Shown here: one piece after another, positions 25,370-30,120 of the stretch
Layout: each line of letters starts with the position of its first letter
Position numbering within the stretch: position 1 is the first letter of the stretch
Source: Sphingopyxis sp. LK2115
GTDB lineage: Bacteria > Pseudomonadota > Alphaproteobacteria > Sphingomonadales > Sphingomonadaceae
Direction of reading: 5' to 3'
Assembly: GCF_014595975.1 (NCBI RefSeq)
Contig: NZ_JABWGQ010000027.1
Coordinates: 1 to 64,000, forward strand
DNA length: 64,000 nt
Translations under genes and position numbers: made by a program
Notes under the pieces: model-generated
What the model saw: only the letters and a program-made list of their open reading frames with translations
What the model was told of the DNA's origin: nothing
Database searches by the model: none

Positions 25370-26173
25370 TCAATGTCCTGCCGTGCCCAGTCCGTCGATC
25401 TTCTTTGACTGGCGCGCGATCAGACCGGGGAACCAGCGGGCAAGGCGCGACAGGCGGCGCGCCATCTTGCCGACAGGCACATGCACCCGGTCGCCATGGA
25501 CCGCATCCCATGCGGCGCGCGCGACATCCTCGACCGGCGAAATCTCGAACCCGCTTGCTTCCAGCCGGTTGCGCGCGGGTTCGTTGCTGTCGGCGCTCAC
25601 CTGGTCGAGCAGCGGCGTGTCGATGAAGCCCGGCATCAGCGAACGCACCTTGATCCCATGCTTGGCGAACTCGATTTCGAGTGCTTCGGTAAGCCCGCGC
25701 ACGGCGAATTTGGTCGCCGAATAGACGGCGAGCCCGCCGACGCCATAGAATCCCGACGCCGACCCGGTGTTCAGGATCGCCGATCCCGGCGTCGCGCGCA
25801 GAAGCGGCAGCGCCATATAGATGCCATTCACCACGCCGCCGAAATTGATCGCGATCAGCCGGTCGGCCTCTTCGGGCGCCATGTCGATGAACTGGCCGCC
25901 CGATCCGATGCCGGCGTTGTTGAACAGCACGTCGAGGCGGTCACCGCTGGCGCGCGCAAAGTCGGCGAGCGCGGCCTTCCACTGGTCGCGATCGCGAACG
26001 TCCATGACATGCCGCGACGAGGCACCGTCGGGAAGCAGCGCCGCGGTTTCGTCGATCCCCTGCGCATTGATGTCGGCGATGCCGACGAACCAGCCCTTGC
26101 CCGCGAAATGACGCGCGACCGCGCGGCCGATGCCCGAACCCCCGCCGGTGATGAAAATCGCCTTCCGCGTCAT
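25370..26173 (-). CDS. SDR-family oxidoreductase
   Basis: A 267-aa classical short-chain dehydrogenase. TGGGSGIG (8-15) binds NAD(P), LFNNAGIGSGG is the NAG motif, and VYSATKFAVRGLTEAL carries the catalytic Tyr and Lys. The ATG at 26173 follows GGAGGGAGCGG, a strong ribosome site. The substrate is unknown. An inverted repeat just upstream may bind a regulator. Confidence 0.85.
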   Translation of the reverse strand: MTRKAIFITGGGSGIGRAVARHFAGKGWFVGIADINAQGIDETAALLPDGASSRHVMDVRDRDQWKAALADFARASGDRLDVLFNNAGIGSGGQFIDMAPEEADRLIAINFGGVVNGIYMALPLLRATPGSAILNTGSASGFYGVGGLAVYSATKFAVRGLTEALEIEFAKHGIKVRSLMPGFIDTPLLDQVSADSNEPARNRLEASGFEISPVEDVARAAWDAVHGDRVHVPVGKMARRLSRLARWFPGLIARQSKKIDGLGTAGH

Positions 26174-26184
26174 CCGCTCCCTCC

Positions 26185-26198
26185 TGACATTTGTGTCA
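26185..26198. promoter_or_regulatory. Inverted repeat upstream of the SDR gene
   Basis: TGACATTTGTGTCA has 5-bp arms TGACA/TGTCA. It is 12 bases before the SDR start codon on the minus strand, next to the ribosome site. TetR-family repressors often control such SDR genes through similar sites; no regulator gene is adjacent. Confidence 0.35.
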
Positions 26199-26282
26199 GT
26201 TTCACAAGATGCGAAGTTGACGGGGCCGTCAAGCGGCAATCGCGGCTTGGCGGAGCGCTGCGCGGCCGGTATCAGCCTCAGG

Positions 26283-26786
26283 ATGCTGCGCTTTCCCCTG
26301 ATGCTCGCCTCGCTATGGCTGCTCTGTTTCGTGTCGGCGCAGGCCGCGGTGACGGTCAGTTTCTACAGCCATGATTTCGGCGACCGCTTTCCGCACGCCT
26401 TCATCGTGATGAAGGGCAAGCTGGATGCGACGGGCGAGGCGGTCGATGCCAATTACGGCTTTACCGCAGTGTCGGTCAGCCCGGCGATCCTGTTCGGGGC
26501 GGTGAAAGGCAAGGTCGAATCGTCGAAACCCGATTACATCGCCAGAAGCGACCGCCAGTTCGATGTCGTCGTCGATGACGCAACCTATATGCGGATATTG
26601 GCGAAGGTCGCCGAATGGCGCGACCGCAAGCAGCCGAGCTACAGCCTGAACAAACGCAACTGCGTCCATTTCGTGATGGAACTGGCCGAGGTCGTGGGGC
26701 TGAAGGTGAATCGGAAAAGCAAGTTGTTCAAGAAACCGAAAAGTTTTTTGCAGGAGGTGAAGGGGCTGAATCCGGAGCTGAAGTGA
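26283..26786 (+). CDS. Secreted protein of unknown function, possibly a permuted papain-like fold
   Basis: A 167-aa protein with a Sec signal (LRFPLMLASLWLLCFVSAQAA, cleavage near residue 21). Two segments stand out: FPHAFIVMKGK with a His, and, about 90 residues later, YSLNKRNCVHFVMELAEVVGL with a Cys. A His-first, Cys-later order next to a helix is what permuted NlpC/P60 (LRAT/YiiX-like) proteins show. The tail is basic. The fold is inferred, and the gene is otherwise not recognised. Confidence 0.6.
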   Translation: MLRFPLMLASLWLLCFVSAQAAVTVSFYSHDFGDRFPHAFIVMKGKLDATGEAVDANYGFTAVSVSPAILFGAVKGKVESSKPDYIARSDRQFDVVVDDATYMRILAKVAEWRDRKQPSYSLNKRNCVHFVMELAEVVGLKVNRKSKLFKKPKSFLQEVKGLNPELK

Positions 26787-26822: not shown

Positions 26823-26848
26823 GTCATCCCGGCCTTCGCCGGGATGAC
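26823..26848 (+). repeat. Perfect hairpin, family C copy 2
   Basis: GTCATCCCGGC and GCCGGGATGAC form an 11-bp perfect stem with loop CTTC, 36 bases after the secreted protein's stop. It could act as a transcript end or stabiliser (no T tract), or be a REP-like unit. The stem matches the ends of the palindrome at 22018-22052. Confidence 0.65.
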
Positions 26849-27006
26849 AGAGGGGAAAGTCGGGAATCCGCACCATAGCTGACCCCACGGCGCATCGGGG
26901 CGATTCTTTGTCGACCGCTCACCCCTAGACGCCATCCCGCTTTCACCCTATGTTCAGCGAACGGGGCGCAGAGCTTTCCGCTTCGTTACGAAATGAGGGG
27001 CAATTC

Positions 27007-27273
27007 TTGCGGTTTTTGCTGACCCTTTTGGCGTTGCTGACCGGTCTGGCGAGTGCCGACCGGGCGGTTGCCGCGCCCGCCATGCCGGCGGCGATGGGGT
27101 CGCTCGTGCTGCTTGCCGAAAGCTCGGCCAAGGTCGAGGCGGACGACAGCGTCCGTCGTCCCGCGACCAATGCGCCGACGCGGCGCAGCTCGGCGAGTTG
27201 CACCAGGCCGCGCAAGGCGCCGCCGCCGCATCTTCCCGGATTGCTCACCCGAAGCGATCGCGCGCTCGAATAG
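27007..27273 (+). CDS. Signal-peptide leader upstream of secA, candidate secretion-monitor arrest peptide
   Basis: An 88-aa frame opening with TTG at 27007 and a good ribosome site (TGAGGGG, 6 bases upstream); an ATG at 26950 is in frame but lacks one. Residues 1-22 are a clear Sec signal (LLTLLALLTGLASADRAVAA). The rest is low-complexity and basic, ending RPRKAPPPHLPGLLTRSDRALE with three consecutive prolines. The stop is 111 bases before secA. Signal peptide, short length, Pro-rich end and position match the layout of SecM-like monitors. No homologue is recognised. Confidence 0.5.
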   Translation: MRFLLTLLALLTGLASADRAVAAPAMPAAMGSLVLLAESSAKVEADDSVRRPATNAPTRRSSASCTRPRKAPPPHLPGLLTRSDRALE

Positions 27274-27384
27274 CGCCCCGTTCCTCGTCCCCGACCTGGG
27301 GCAGTCCCGCCACGGGCGTTCCTTATTCGACATGCGCGCGTCTGTCGGCGCCGCACATCCAAATGATATTTCAAGGATATTTCC
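27274..27384 (+). promoter_or_regulatory. secA translational leader with nested stems and repeated ribosome-site context
   Basis: Short stems can form in the gap after the leader ORF: CCCC (27289-27292) with GGGG (27298-27301), inside CGCCC (27274-27278) with GGGCG (27314-27318). The secA ribosome site AAGGA (27373-27377) lies between two copies of GATATTTC (27365-27372 and 27376-27383). Whether this folds with the leader ORF is unknown. Confidence 0.35.
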
Positions 27385-30120
27385 ATGTTCTCCGGCCTTG
27401 CCAAGAGCCTTTTCGGCTCGTCCAATGACCGTTACGTCAATTCGATCCGCAAGATCGTCGACAAGATCAACGCCTTCGAGCCTGCGATGCAGGCGCTCGA
27501 TGACGCGGGATTGCAGGCGCAGACGGCAAAGTTCCGCGAGCGGTTGGCCGCGGGCGAGACGCTCGACGACCTTTTGCCCGAAGCCTTCGCCACGGTGCGC
27601 GAGGCGGCGGTGCGCACGCTGGGCATGCGCCATTTCGACGTCCAGATGATCGGCGGCGTCGTGCTGCACCGCGGCGAGATCGCCGAGATGGCGACGGGCG
27701 AGGGCAAGACACTGATGGCGACGCTGCCCTGCTATCTGAACGCGCTTGAGGGCAAGGGCGTTCATGTCGTGACCGTCAACGACTATCTGGCGCGCCGCGA
27801 CGCCGAATGGATGGGGGCCGTCTATGGCTTCCTGGGGCTGTCGACCGGGGTGATCGTCCCCAATCTCAACGAGACGCAGCGGCGCGAGGCTTATAACAGC
27901 GACATCACCTATGCCACGAACAACGAGCTGGGGTTCGATTATCTGCGCGACAATATGAAGTTCGACCGCGCGCAGATGGTCCACCGCCCGTTCAATTTCG
28001 GTATCGTCGACGAGGTCGATTCGATCCTGATCGACGAAGCGCGCACCCCGCTGATCATCTCCGGCCCGACCGACGACAAATCCGAACTCTATGTGCGCGT
28101 CAACGAGGTCGTGCTCCAGCTTACCGATCAGGATTATGAGAAGGATGAAAAGTCCAAGTCGATCAGCCTGACCGAAGAGGGCACCGAGCATGTCGAGCGG
28201 CTGCTCGAAGCCGCGGGGCTGCTCCAGGGCAGCAACCTCTATGACATCGAGAACACCCAGATCGTCCATCACGTCAATCAGGCGCTGAAGGCGATCCAGA
28301 TGTTCCGCATCGACACCGACTATATCGTCAAGGACGGCAAGGTCGTCATCATCGACGAGTTCACCGGCCGGATGATGGAGGGGCGCCGCTGGTCCGACGG
28401 CCTGCACCAGGCGGTCGAAGCGAAGGAAGGCGTGCGGATCGAGCCAGAGAATCAGACGCTCGCTTCGATCACTTTCCAGAATTATTTTCGCATGTATCCG
28501 AAACTTGCGGGCATGACCGGCACCGCGGCGACCGAGGCGGCCGAGTTTTTCGACATCTACAAGATGAACGTCGTCACCATCCCGACCAACCGCCCGATCG
28601 CGCGGATCGACGAGGAAGACGAGTTCTACAAGAATATCACCGACAAGTTCGGCGCAATCGCGCGCACCATCCGCGAAGCGCAGGAGCGCGGCCAGCCGGT
28701 GCTCGTTGGCACCGTGTCGATCGAAAAGTCCGAACTGCTCTCCTCCTTCCTCGAAAAGGAAGGCGTCGCGCACAGCGTTTTGAACGCGCGCTTCCATGAA
28801 AGCGAGGCGCATATCGTCGCGCAGGCGGGGCGTCGCGGCGCGGTGACCATCGCGACGAACATGGCGGGTCGCGGCACCGACATCAAACTGGGCGGCAACG
28901 AAGAGTTCCGCATCGAGGATGAGCTCAAAGACATGCCCGCGGGCCCCGAGCGCGACGCCGCCGAGGCGCGCATCCGCGAGGAAGTCGCCGCCGAGCGCGA
29001 GGCGGTGAAGGCTGCGGGCGGGCTGTTCGTGCTCGCGACCGAGCGTCACGAAAGCCGCCGCATCGACAATCAGTTGCGCGGCCGTTCGGGGCGCCAGGGC
29101 GACCCCGGCCTCAGCAAATTCTATCTCTGCCTCGACGACGACCTGTTGCGCATCTTTGGCCCCGACACGCTGTTCGCCAAGATGATGAACAAGAATCTGG
29201 AAGATGGCGAGGCGATCGGGTCGAAATGGCTGTCGAAGGCGATCGAGACCGCGCAGAAGAAGGTGGAGGCGCGCAATTACGACATCCGCAAGCAGGTCGT
29301 CGAATATGACAATGTGATGAACGACCAGCGCAAGGTCATCTATGAACAGCGCGGCGAGATCATCGACAGCGAAACCGTCGGCGACGTGATGGCGGCGATG
29401 CGCGCCGAGACGGTCAATGCGATCGTCGGCGACGCCTGCCCGCCGGGCAGCTATCCCGAACAATGGAATGTCGAGGCGATGAAGGAGCGGGTGGCAAATA
29501 TCCTGAACCTCAACCCGCCGATCGACGACTGGATGCAGGAGGACGCCGTCGATCCGGAAGTGTTCGAGGAACGGCTTCAGCAGATGGCCGACGCAGCCGC
29601 AGCCGAAAAGGCGGCGCTGGTCGATGCCGAAACCTGGAAGGGGATCGAAAAGTCGATCCTGCTCCAGACGCTCGACCATCACTGGAAGGACCATCTCGCG
29701 ACGCTCGACGCGCTGCGTCAGGCCATCTTCCTGCGCGCCTATGCGCAGAAACAGCCGATCAACGAATATAAGCAGGAGGCGTTCGCGCTGTTCGAGCGGA
29801 TGCTGTCGAACATCCGTGAAGATGTGACGCGCACCGTCGCCCGCCTCGACCTGCGCTTCGAAGAGCCCGCGCCGCTCCCGCTTCCCGAGCTTCCCGATTT
29901 CCTGACGACGCACATCGACCCCTTCACCGGTGAGGATAACAGCGCCGACGTCGATGCGGGATCGCTGGGCGTGATCGCGAACACCCTGCCGCCGATGCAG
30001 GTGCCCAAGCACGACATCGCCAAGGGCGAGAACCCCTATGCCGCGCTGGAAATCAGCCGCAACGCGCCGTGCCCGTGCGGTTCGGGGCGCAAATACAAAC
30101 ATTGCCACGGCGCGATCTGA
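27385..30120 (+). CDS. secA: Preprotein translocase ATPase SecA
   Basis: A 911-aa motor that drives unfolded preproteins through SecYEG. NBD1 carries Walker A GEGKT (105-109) and DEVD (209-212). The preprotein-crosslinking and scaffold domains follow, with [17 protein letters not shown] in NBD2. The C-terminal zinc tail [14 protein letters not shown] has ligands Cys896, Cys898, Cys907 and His908 and binds SecB. The start has AAGGA 7 bases upstream. Full length, no defect. A secretion-type leader ORF precedes it. Confidence 0.98.

Follow-up and report, generated by a model that had tools for sequence, protein, structure and literature searches.

The analysed stretch of DNA, hereafter the window, comprises the first 64,000 nucleotides (nt) of contig NZ_JABWGQ010000027.1 of Sphingopyxis sp. 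LK2115 (assembly GCF_014595975.1), and the element considered here is a short open reading frame that lies directly upstream of secA. The first-pass annotation had described an 88-amino-acid frame with a TTG start and a good ribosome site, a signal-peptide-like beginning and no recognisable domain, ending 111 nt before secA, and all of this is found in the sequence. Its conservation as a coding frame before secA, its signal peptide, its drifting linker and the 15 C-terminal residues fixed at a UAG or UAA stop codon indicate that its product is probably a leader peptide of secA that monitors secretion. The features of the locus are as follows.

26925..26954, forward strand: promoter-like pair CTAGAC (26925-26930), 18 nt, TATGTT (26949-26954), near-invariant in 69 aligned upstream regions
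26995..27000, forward strand: leader Shine-Dalgarno sequence GAGGGG (in 68 of 70 loci an AGGGG lies no more than 18 nt from the start)
27007..27273, forward strand: leader frame, 88 codons and TAG, with a TTG start; start and stop shared by 70 of 70 intact Sphingopyxis loci
27007..27075, forward strand: signal-peptide-like segment, residues 1-23, judged by its sequence, its conservation and its helix, the best-modelled part of the peptide
27127..27213, forward strand: linker, approximately residues 41-69, which drifts and varies in length by whole codons
27214..27228, forward strand: K-A-P-P-P, variable and outside the conserved core
27226..27273, forward strand: conserved C-terminal end including the stop codon, from alignments in which positions -1 to -5 were partly used in selection
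27274..27384, forward strand: spacer to secA, with three successive small hairpins (about 27289-27301, 27306-27316 and 27338-27354) drawn from the Sphingopyxis alignment
27373..27377, forward strand: secA Shine-Dalgarno sequence AAGGA
27385..30120, forward strand: secA, 911 amino acids

The leader starts with the TTG at 27007 and stops with the TAG at 27271-27273, and the ATG of secA follows at 27385. An alternative in-frame ATG at 26950 sits within the conserved -10-like TATGTT, which makes TTG the better start. The N-terminus, MRFLLTLLALLTGLASADRAVAA, is hydrophobic and signal-peptide-like according to a hydrophobicity scan and its conservation, and about 65 residues extend from residue 24 to the stop. 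Searches with the 88-residue product gave nothing in Pfam and nothing close to a cut-off in NCBIfam, while a longer reading of 107 amino acids produced a sub-threshold match to DUF6234 only. Rfam returned only a sub-threshold match, to sX6, on the opposite strand. The leader is present in one copy in this genome. AlphaFold2, run on a shallow alignment of 13 sequences, gave a mean predicted local distance difference test (pLDDT) score of 58.7, with low values in the linker and no confident structure except the signal helix, which constitutes weak evidence.

Within the genus, a search of 80 Sphingopyxis genomes found a match in 72. Three of the eight genomes without a match are 99% complete (G160, G204 and G220). 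In G220 (locus L257) a second leader type is placed before secA, replacing the one that ends in DRALE. Loci were taken from 70 of the 72 matching genomes, leaving out one in which the region is split over contigs (G184) and one with a partial match (G191); they amount to 71, as one genome contributed two of identical sequence (G223, L045 and L156). An intact leader lies beside secA in 70 of these loci (69 of 70 genomes), in every case with TTG and TAG and with 88-91 codons. The exception, L181, comes from an 87% complete genome, matches from residue 23 only and was not counted as intact. Among 42 relatives in named public genomes, most belong to Sphingopyxis and three carry Erythrobacter-like genus names. 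The ratio of nonsynonymous to synonymous change (pN/pS), calculated on 69 distinct sequences, is lowest in the signal peptide (0.16) and highest in the linker (0.52), with 0.29 over the last 20 codons. Each of the five closing residues (D, R, A, L and E) reaches 99-100% invariance in Sphingopyxis, and synonymous change falls there too. The gap to secA varies from 99 to 124 nt and takes all three phases, and the leader frame changes by whole codons. Judged by this pattern of substitution, the 88-codon frame is a real conserved coding frame, with purifying selection at both ends and drift in the middle. The first-pass annotation had proposed the frame and its TTG start to be followed in relatives, where both are conserved; the frameshifts or free drift that would have spoken against it are not seen at the true C-terminus, L181 aside.

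The conserved part of the peptide is formed by its last 15 residues, ending in [DE]-R-[AR]-x-E directly at the stop codon. The frame had previously been taken to end in RKAPPPHLPGLL, but TRSDRALE still follows, so that the leader of the window ends in SDRALE, and it is this continuation that contains the residues with the highest conservation. Information content was obtained from 52 non-redundant leaders chosen by their ending, which inflates the values at positions -1 to -5 (1.8-4.1 bits; E in 47, A in 44, R in 49 and D in 49). Positions -6 to -15, unused in the selection, hold 1.4-2.9 bits (G at -7 in 31, V at -10 in 43, P at -12 in 42), and positions -16 to -30 hold 0.2-1.2 bits. In the alignment of 13 sequences, which were not selected by ending, K70, P77, D84, R85, A86 and E88 are invariant. 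The per-position information and the invariant residues near the stop together indicate that the motif keeps a constant distance to the stop codon. The alternative that elongation is arrested further upstream, at K-A-P-P-P acting as a RAPP-like site, was the one proposed in the first-pass annotation. Polyproline slows ribosomes, and a RAPP-like (RQH) motif, that is R/Q/H-A-P-P, R-G-P-P or R-A-G-P, does occur in the last 30 residues of two of the 85 other leaders (L083 and L138), although in none of the 70 Sphingopyxis loci. RAPP-like motifs are also frequent in leaders of this kind in the portions of the published surveys drawn on here. Of the 70 Sphingopyxis loci nine have K-A-P-P-P itself, and the 85 other leaders all lack it, though their C-termini stay conserved; an arrest at this site appears highly improbable.

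Leaders of the same type are found outside the genus. A first profile, built from the 13 sequences, gave matches in 124 of 298 Sphingomonadaceae genomes and in 45 of 96 sampled genera of the Genome Taxonomy Database (GTDB), a few of them weak and not beside secA; secA itself was located in 290 of the 298 genomes. Across the order, a later profile of 76 sequences has matches in 107 of 246 genomes. Three weak ones in other families (E 9.5e-5 to 8.9e-4) showed no secA N-terminus in the stretches fetched and were taken as chance. For inspection, 40 stretches around hand-picked matches were fetched, and 40 more were taken upstream of secA in genomes that lack a credible match. The hand-picking omitted several weak matches, some of them not beside secA (G230, G232); L009 is not beside secA, L076, L081 and L141 failed the secA pattern, L081 was entered manually into the stop-codon count, and L004-L008 duplicate L037-L041 and entered the counts a single time. 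Loci supplied by the first profile search itself brought the leader-matched loci outside Sphingopyxis to 65. The secA pattern was found in 64 of them, 81-141 nt downstream, and the remaining one (L141) is located about 90 nt from secA by its coordinates. An ending of the form [DE][RL][ASR]x[EDQTKN] is present in 63 of 64 leader-matched loci outside Sphingopyxis (R in 60 and L in three at position -4). Of the 40 stretches without a credible match, 21 have a frame with a signal peptide that lies 50-200 nt upstream of secA; five of these frames end in the same pattern and six in another arginine-rich sequence. A second leader type, ending in ERRxE or RRRE, has its own separate profile, which matches 19 of 199 genomes and 14 of 96 genera; loci of this type, with these or similar endings, are L077, L083, L085, L089, L096, L251-L253 and L256-L258. 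In four further loci (L066, L073, L075 and L086) a TonB_C-like protein with a signal peptide is encoded before secA, as confirmed by Pfam for L073 and L075, the two that were run. L073 ends in GDKHELEEGAP, a near-match to the GDKLEHEEGAP of short domain-less leaders from another genus (L072, L097 and L100), and this shared ending may possibly represent another stop-proximal code.

The identity of the stop codon provides a further clue. Leaders with the pattern ending (78 in 46 genera) use TAG in 65 cases, TAA in 13 and TGA in none; TAG is found in all 69 intact Sphingopyxis genomes, and the combined class thus contains no TGA in 147. As a background, a crude gene set compiled from twenty 20-kb stretches of family genomes and from the window has TGA at 147 of 231 stops (64%). 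TAA is the sole stop in seven genera and occurs beside TAG in six, which indicates that the stop has switched repeatedly without ever becoming TGA. TGA is likewise absent from the leaders with other arginine-rich ends (0 of 12) and is used by three of the 13 with unrelated ends. Release factor 1 (RF1) reads UAG and UAA, and release factor 2 (RF2) reads UGA and UAA. The use of TAG and TAA without TGA, read together with these codon specificities, points to RF1-dependent termination and suggests an arrest at that step. In addition, the last Glu is encoded by GAA in 67 of 69 Sphingopyxis leaders and 54 of 62 others, compared with 33 of 85 Glu residues in the secA of the window. The lack of TGA and the preference for GAA at the end matter to a ribosome and not to a released peptide, and in this respect they argue against a small exported peptide that would act after its secretion, for instance as a periplasmic partner of Sec or as a substrate of envelope quality control, would have its C-terminus conserved for binding or for recognition by a protease, and would merely share an operon with secA. 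The signal peptide and the conserved free C-terminus would suit such a peptide, and so would the TonB_C domain protein found before secA in some related loci; the absence of a confident fold (on a shallow alignment), the drifting linker and the place before secA fit it poorly, and overall it seems quite unlikely.

In Sphingopyxis, the promoter-like pair predicts that the transcript should begin about 45 nt before the TTG; a promoter scan based on the sigma-70 consensus did not report this CTAGAC/TATGTT pair. Outside Sphingopyxis, a TGGAC-like box followed after 17-20 nt by a box starting with TA precedes 62 of 68 leaders, whose start codons a script had shifted upstream to an ATG if one lay close by. 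In 57 of the 68 (from loci L037-L142, for example L041 and L046) the distance from the end of the second box to the start codon is 6-10 nt, and shuffled sequences give a mean of 1.7 and a maximum of 5 for a range of 5-11 nt. A four-base Shine-Dalgarno word stands before three of these 68 leaders and 41 of the 68 secA genes (13 versus 67 with looser words). Transcription typically starts 6-9 nt past a -10 box, which would place the 5' end of the messenger RNA (mRNA) at or adjoining the AUG, and the leader mRNA outside Sphingopyxis looks leaderless. Members of the second type, such as L083, seem to have a longer leader and TTG starts.

How an arrest at the end of the leader would be transmitted to secA was approached through the spacer. 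The three-hairpin model was tested on an unfitted alignment of 52 Sphingopyxis sequences (50 distinct), in which 86.4% of the cells pair, versus 41-54% in slid versions of the model, and the covariation score reaches 0.163, versus 0.132 in shuffles and at most 0.097 in slid versions. The cells changed on both sides (19) lie above the shuffles (7.2), but two slid versions reach 19 and 23, and the pairs with changes on both sides (6) fall within the shuffles (92 of 500). The structure has therefore moderate support only. An RNA model made from the 52 sequences found all 17 held-out Sphingopyxis loci, which share sequence as well, and gave no convincing match among 59 other loci (three scored E 0.044 to 0.43). 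RNAalifold yielded a poor structure for the first spacer alignment. The idea that the DRALE codons pair at long range with the third hairpin was dropped, as variants of this hairpin seen in the alignment break it. A terminator-like element is present in 55 of 69 Sphingopyxis spacers (8.6 in shuffles), at several places besides the second hairpin, and in the 40 nt after the stop C exceeds G in 65 of 68 family leaders and 67 of 69 Sphingopyxis leaders, versus 75 of 133 background genes. On account of these terminator-like hairpins and of the C-rich RNA after the stop, transcription attenuation is weakly favoured over unmasking of the secA ribosome site. The excess of C would also suit a mechanism in which translation of the leader alone matters, through coupling, shielding of the mRNA from Rho or spacing, with the peptide sequence being incidental, and leader frames can in general act by being merely translated. 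The start of secA is, however, just as C-rich (68 of 68), and the C-terminal amino acids are strongly conserved while synonymous change persists, which makes this explanation most improbable.

An action of the same arrest peptide on the ribosome-binding site of secA, as in the secM-secA pair of E. coli, overlaps with the reading preferred here and has the classic SecM precedent in its favour (main-text account in PMC10987492). Short inverted repeats of differing sequence (GTCC...GGAC, CCC...GGG and GTCTT...AAGAC) were seen by eye to overlap the secA Shine-Dalgarno sequence in several genera (L041, L046, L048, L051, L052, L054, L060 and L111). The accessibility of this site was computed in a purely thermodynamic model by folding the RNA with and without the footprint of a ribosome at the stop codon, shifted footprints being the controls. 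The mean change was -0.07 kcal/mol in 69 Sphingopyxis loci and +0.21 kcal/mol in 65 others (controls -0.12 to +0.09). With no predicted change in accessibility, the folding lends no support to a SecM-style unmasking, and the variant that acts through the ribosome site is considered unlikely. The first-pass annotation had also suggested that a repeat, GATATTTC, together with short stems, could form a switch at this site. An exact copy of the repeat does occur in the window, but the other aligned loci show only variants or nothing alike, and neither this lack of conservation nor the folding agrees with such a switch.

The leader can be compared with several known systems. Its features correspond to those used to recognise monitoring substrates of Sec and YidC, namely a small unannotated protein encoded upstream of secA (as here), secDF or yidC, an N-terminal secretion signal or transmembrane segment, a conserved C-terminus and a spacer of more than 30 residues (PMC10987492). 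In E. coli SecM, as summarised in the main text of that article, an elongation stall at FxxxxWIxxxxGIRAGP unmasks the secA ribosome site (PMC10987492). The sphingomonad leader shares with SecM the signal peptide, a conserved C-terminal stretch and the position directly upstream of secA; it differs in that the SecM sequence is absent from the peptide of the window and from the aligned rows, in that no unmasking is predicted and in that its conserved end abuts the stop codon. The main-text parts of Fujiwara et al. 2024 describe RAPP-like groups, uA_LPPP of Planctomycetota, uA_NSP-stop of Sphingobacteriaceae (Bacteroidota) and others, and report that in Sec-linked leaders with a conserved end at the stop the arrest depends on the termination codon (PMC10987492). 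The stop-dependent leaders, uA_NSP-stop among them, resemble the present one in being linked to Sec and in carrying the conserved end at the stop codon, but they have other motifs and belong to other phyla, and no Sphingomonadales group appears in those main-text parts, supplements aside. ApdP is, according to the same text, also an alphaproteobacterial Sec-linked leader with a localisation signal, although its arrest motif is R-A-P-P and its target, secDF2, lies downstream (PMC10987492). CliM of C. difficile differs in lying upstream of yidC, in its UAA stop, in its motif and in belonging to Clostridia. An arrest at termination, suggested here by the sequence, recalls TnaC and SpeFL, in which termination arrest blocks RF2 or RF1 and, in the case of TnaC, the stall keeps Rho off the RNA after the stop; these peptides sense small molecules, TnaC has 24 amino acids, and neither is described as exported in the sections of that source used here (PMC8429421). 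No description of a sphingomonad secA leader was found in the literature on arrest peptides, secA and sphingomonads, taken without the supplements of PMC10987492. Neither a leader class lacking UGA nor one on an apparently leaderless message, as in most other genera here, was met in the portions considered of PMC10987492, PMC7897499, PMC13183943, PMC12992588 and PMC8429421, and no secretion sensor on a leaderless message is apparent in the parts consulted of the literature that pairs leaderless mRNAs with arrest peptides. The general idea of a SecM-like secA leader in sphingomonads, already put forward in the first-pass annotation, finds good support in its conservation, position and anatomy, and the leader is a strong candidate for a secretion monitor outside the RAPP and SecM motif classes.

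For this candidate secretion monitor, the following mechanism can be envisaged. The ribosome would pause at the very end of the leader and thereby report on the performance of secretion. Given the roughly 65 residues between the end of the signal peptide and the stop, the signal would already be outside the tunnel by the time of the stall, and a working Sec translocon would pull the nascent chain free. Under weak secretion the stall would persist and the expression of secA would rise. In the final and least certain step, the stall may relieve premature transcription termination, as in tna. In a broader version, a new code formed by [DE]-R-[AR]-x-E and UAG or UAA would block RF1 throughout the family, on an mRNA that mostly begins with the AUG of the leader itself, each secA transcript from that promoter would first be read by a ribosome that makes the sensor, and secA would be controlled by attenuation and not by unmasking of its ribosome site. 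This version is tentative, and we consider it somewhat less than evenly probable.

Several observations weigh against this interpretation. The counts of stops and motifs are not independent owing to shared ancestry, and a change from TAG to TGA requires two base changes. The background for GAA consists of one gene from one species. By the sequences compared, the C-terminal motif resembles no published arrest code among those considered. The terminator-like element is absent, by the criteria used, from the window's own spacer, and elsewhere such elements occur in 12 of 65 spacers, a modest enrichment (4.7 in shuffles, 8 at the largest). The folding of the gap in Sphingopyxis (mean z -1.03; controls -0.16) is matched by that of the secA start (-1.11), and outside Sphingopyxis it is unremarkable (mean z -0.44; controls -0.43 and -0.18); the null result with the stop-codon footprint belongs here as well. 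Among the 21 candidate frames from genomes without a credible match, 10 end in an unrelated sequence and three of these stop with TGA. Finally, 17 of the 40 secA loci without a credible profile match have no candidate leader, and the secA pattern failed in two. Absence of the frame before other sphingomonad secA genes, which the first-pass annotation had regarded as contrary evidence, is thus seen in part, in these 17 loci and in the three well-covered Sphingopyxis genomes that lack a match.

Some neighbouring features deserve mention. A frame at 26130-26786, upstream of the leader, looks exported when read from an internal start and has no Pfam or NCBIfam match; it holds an NCVHF motif that gives the impression of a cysteine-peptidase-type centre. 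Between this gene and the leader lies a palindrome, GTCATCCCGGCCTTCGCCGGGATGAC, at 26823-26848, which occurs at 37 places of the genome with at most two mismatches (none for the reversed control), as a repetitive extragenic palindromic (REP)-like element would. On the reverse strand, an open frame of 1040 codons (26986-30108) runs antisense to the leader and secA and looks like a by-product of the high GC content.

If the proposed monitor is real, a large and ecologically important family would govern its essential secretion motor by means of a nascent-chain sensor whose stall code is unlike those considered here. The absence of UGA yields a direct prediction, namely that the arrest should depend on RF1. 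Furthermore, the roughly 150 leader sequences, with their two related codes DRAxE and ERRxE, would then offer a natural collection for studying the evolution of termination arrest.

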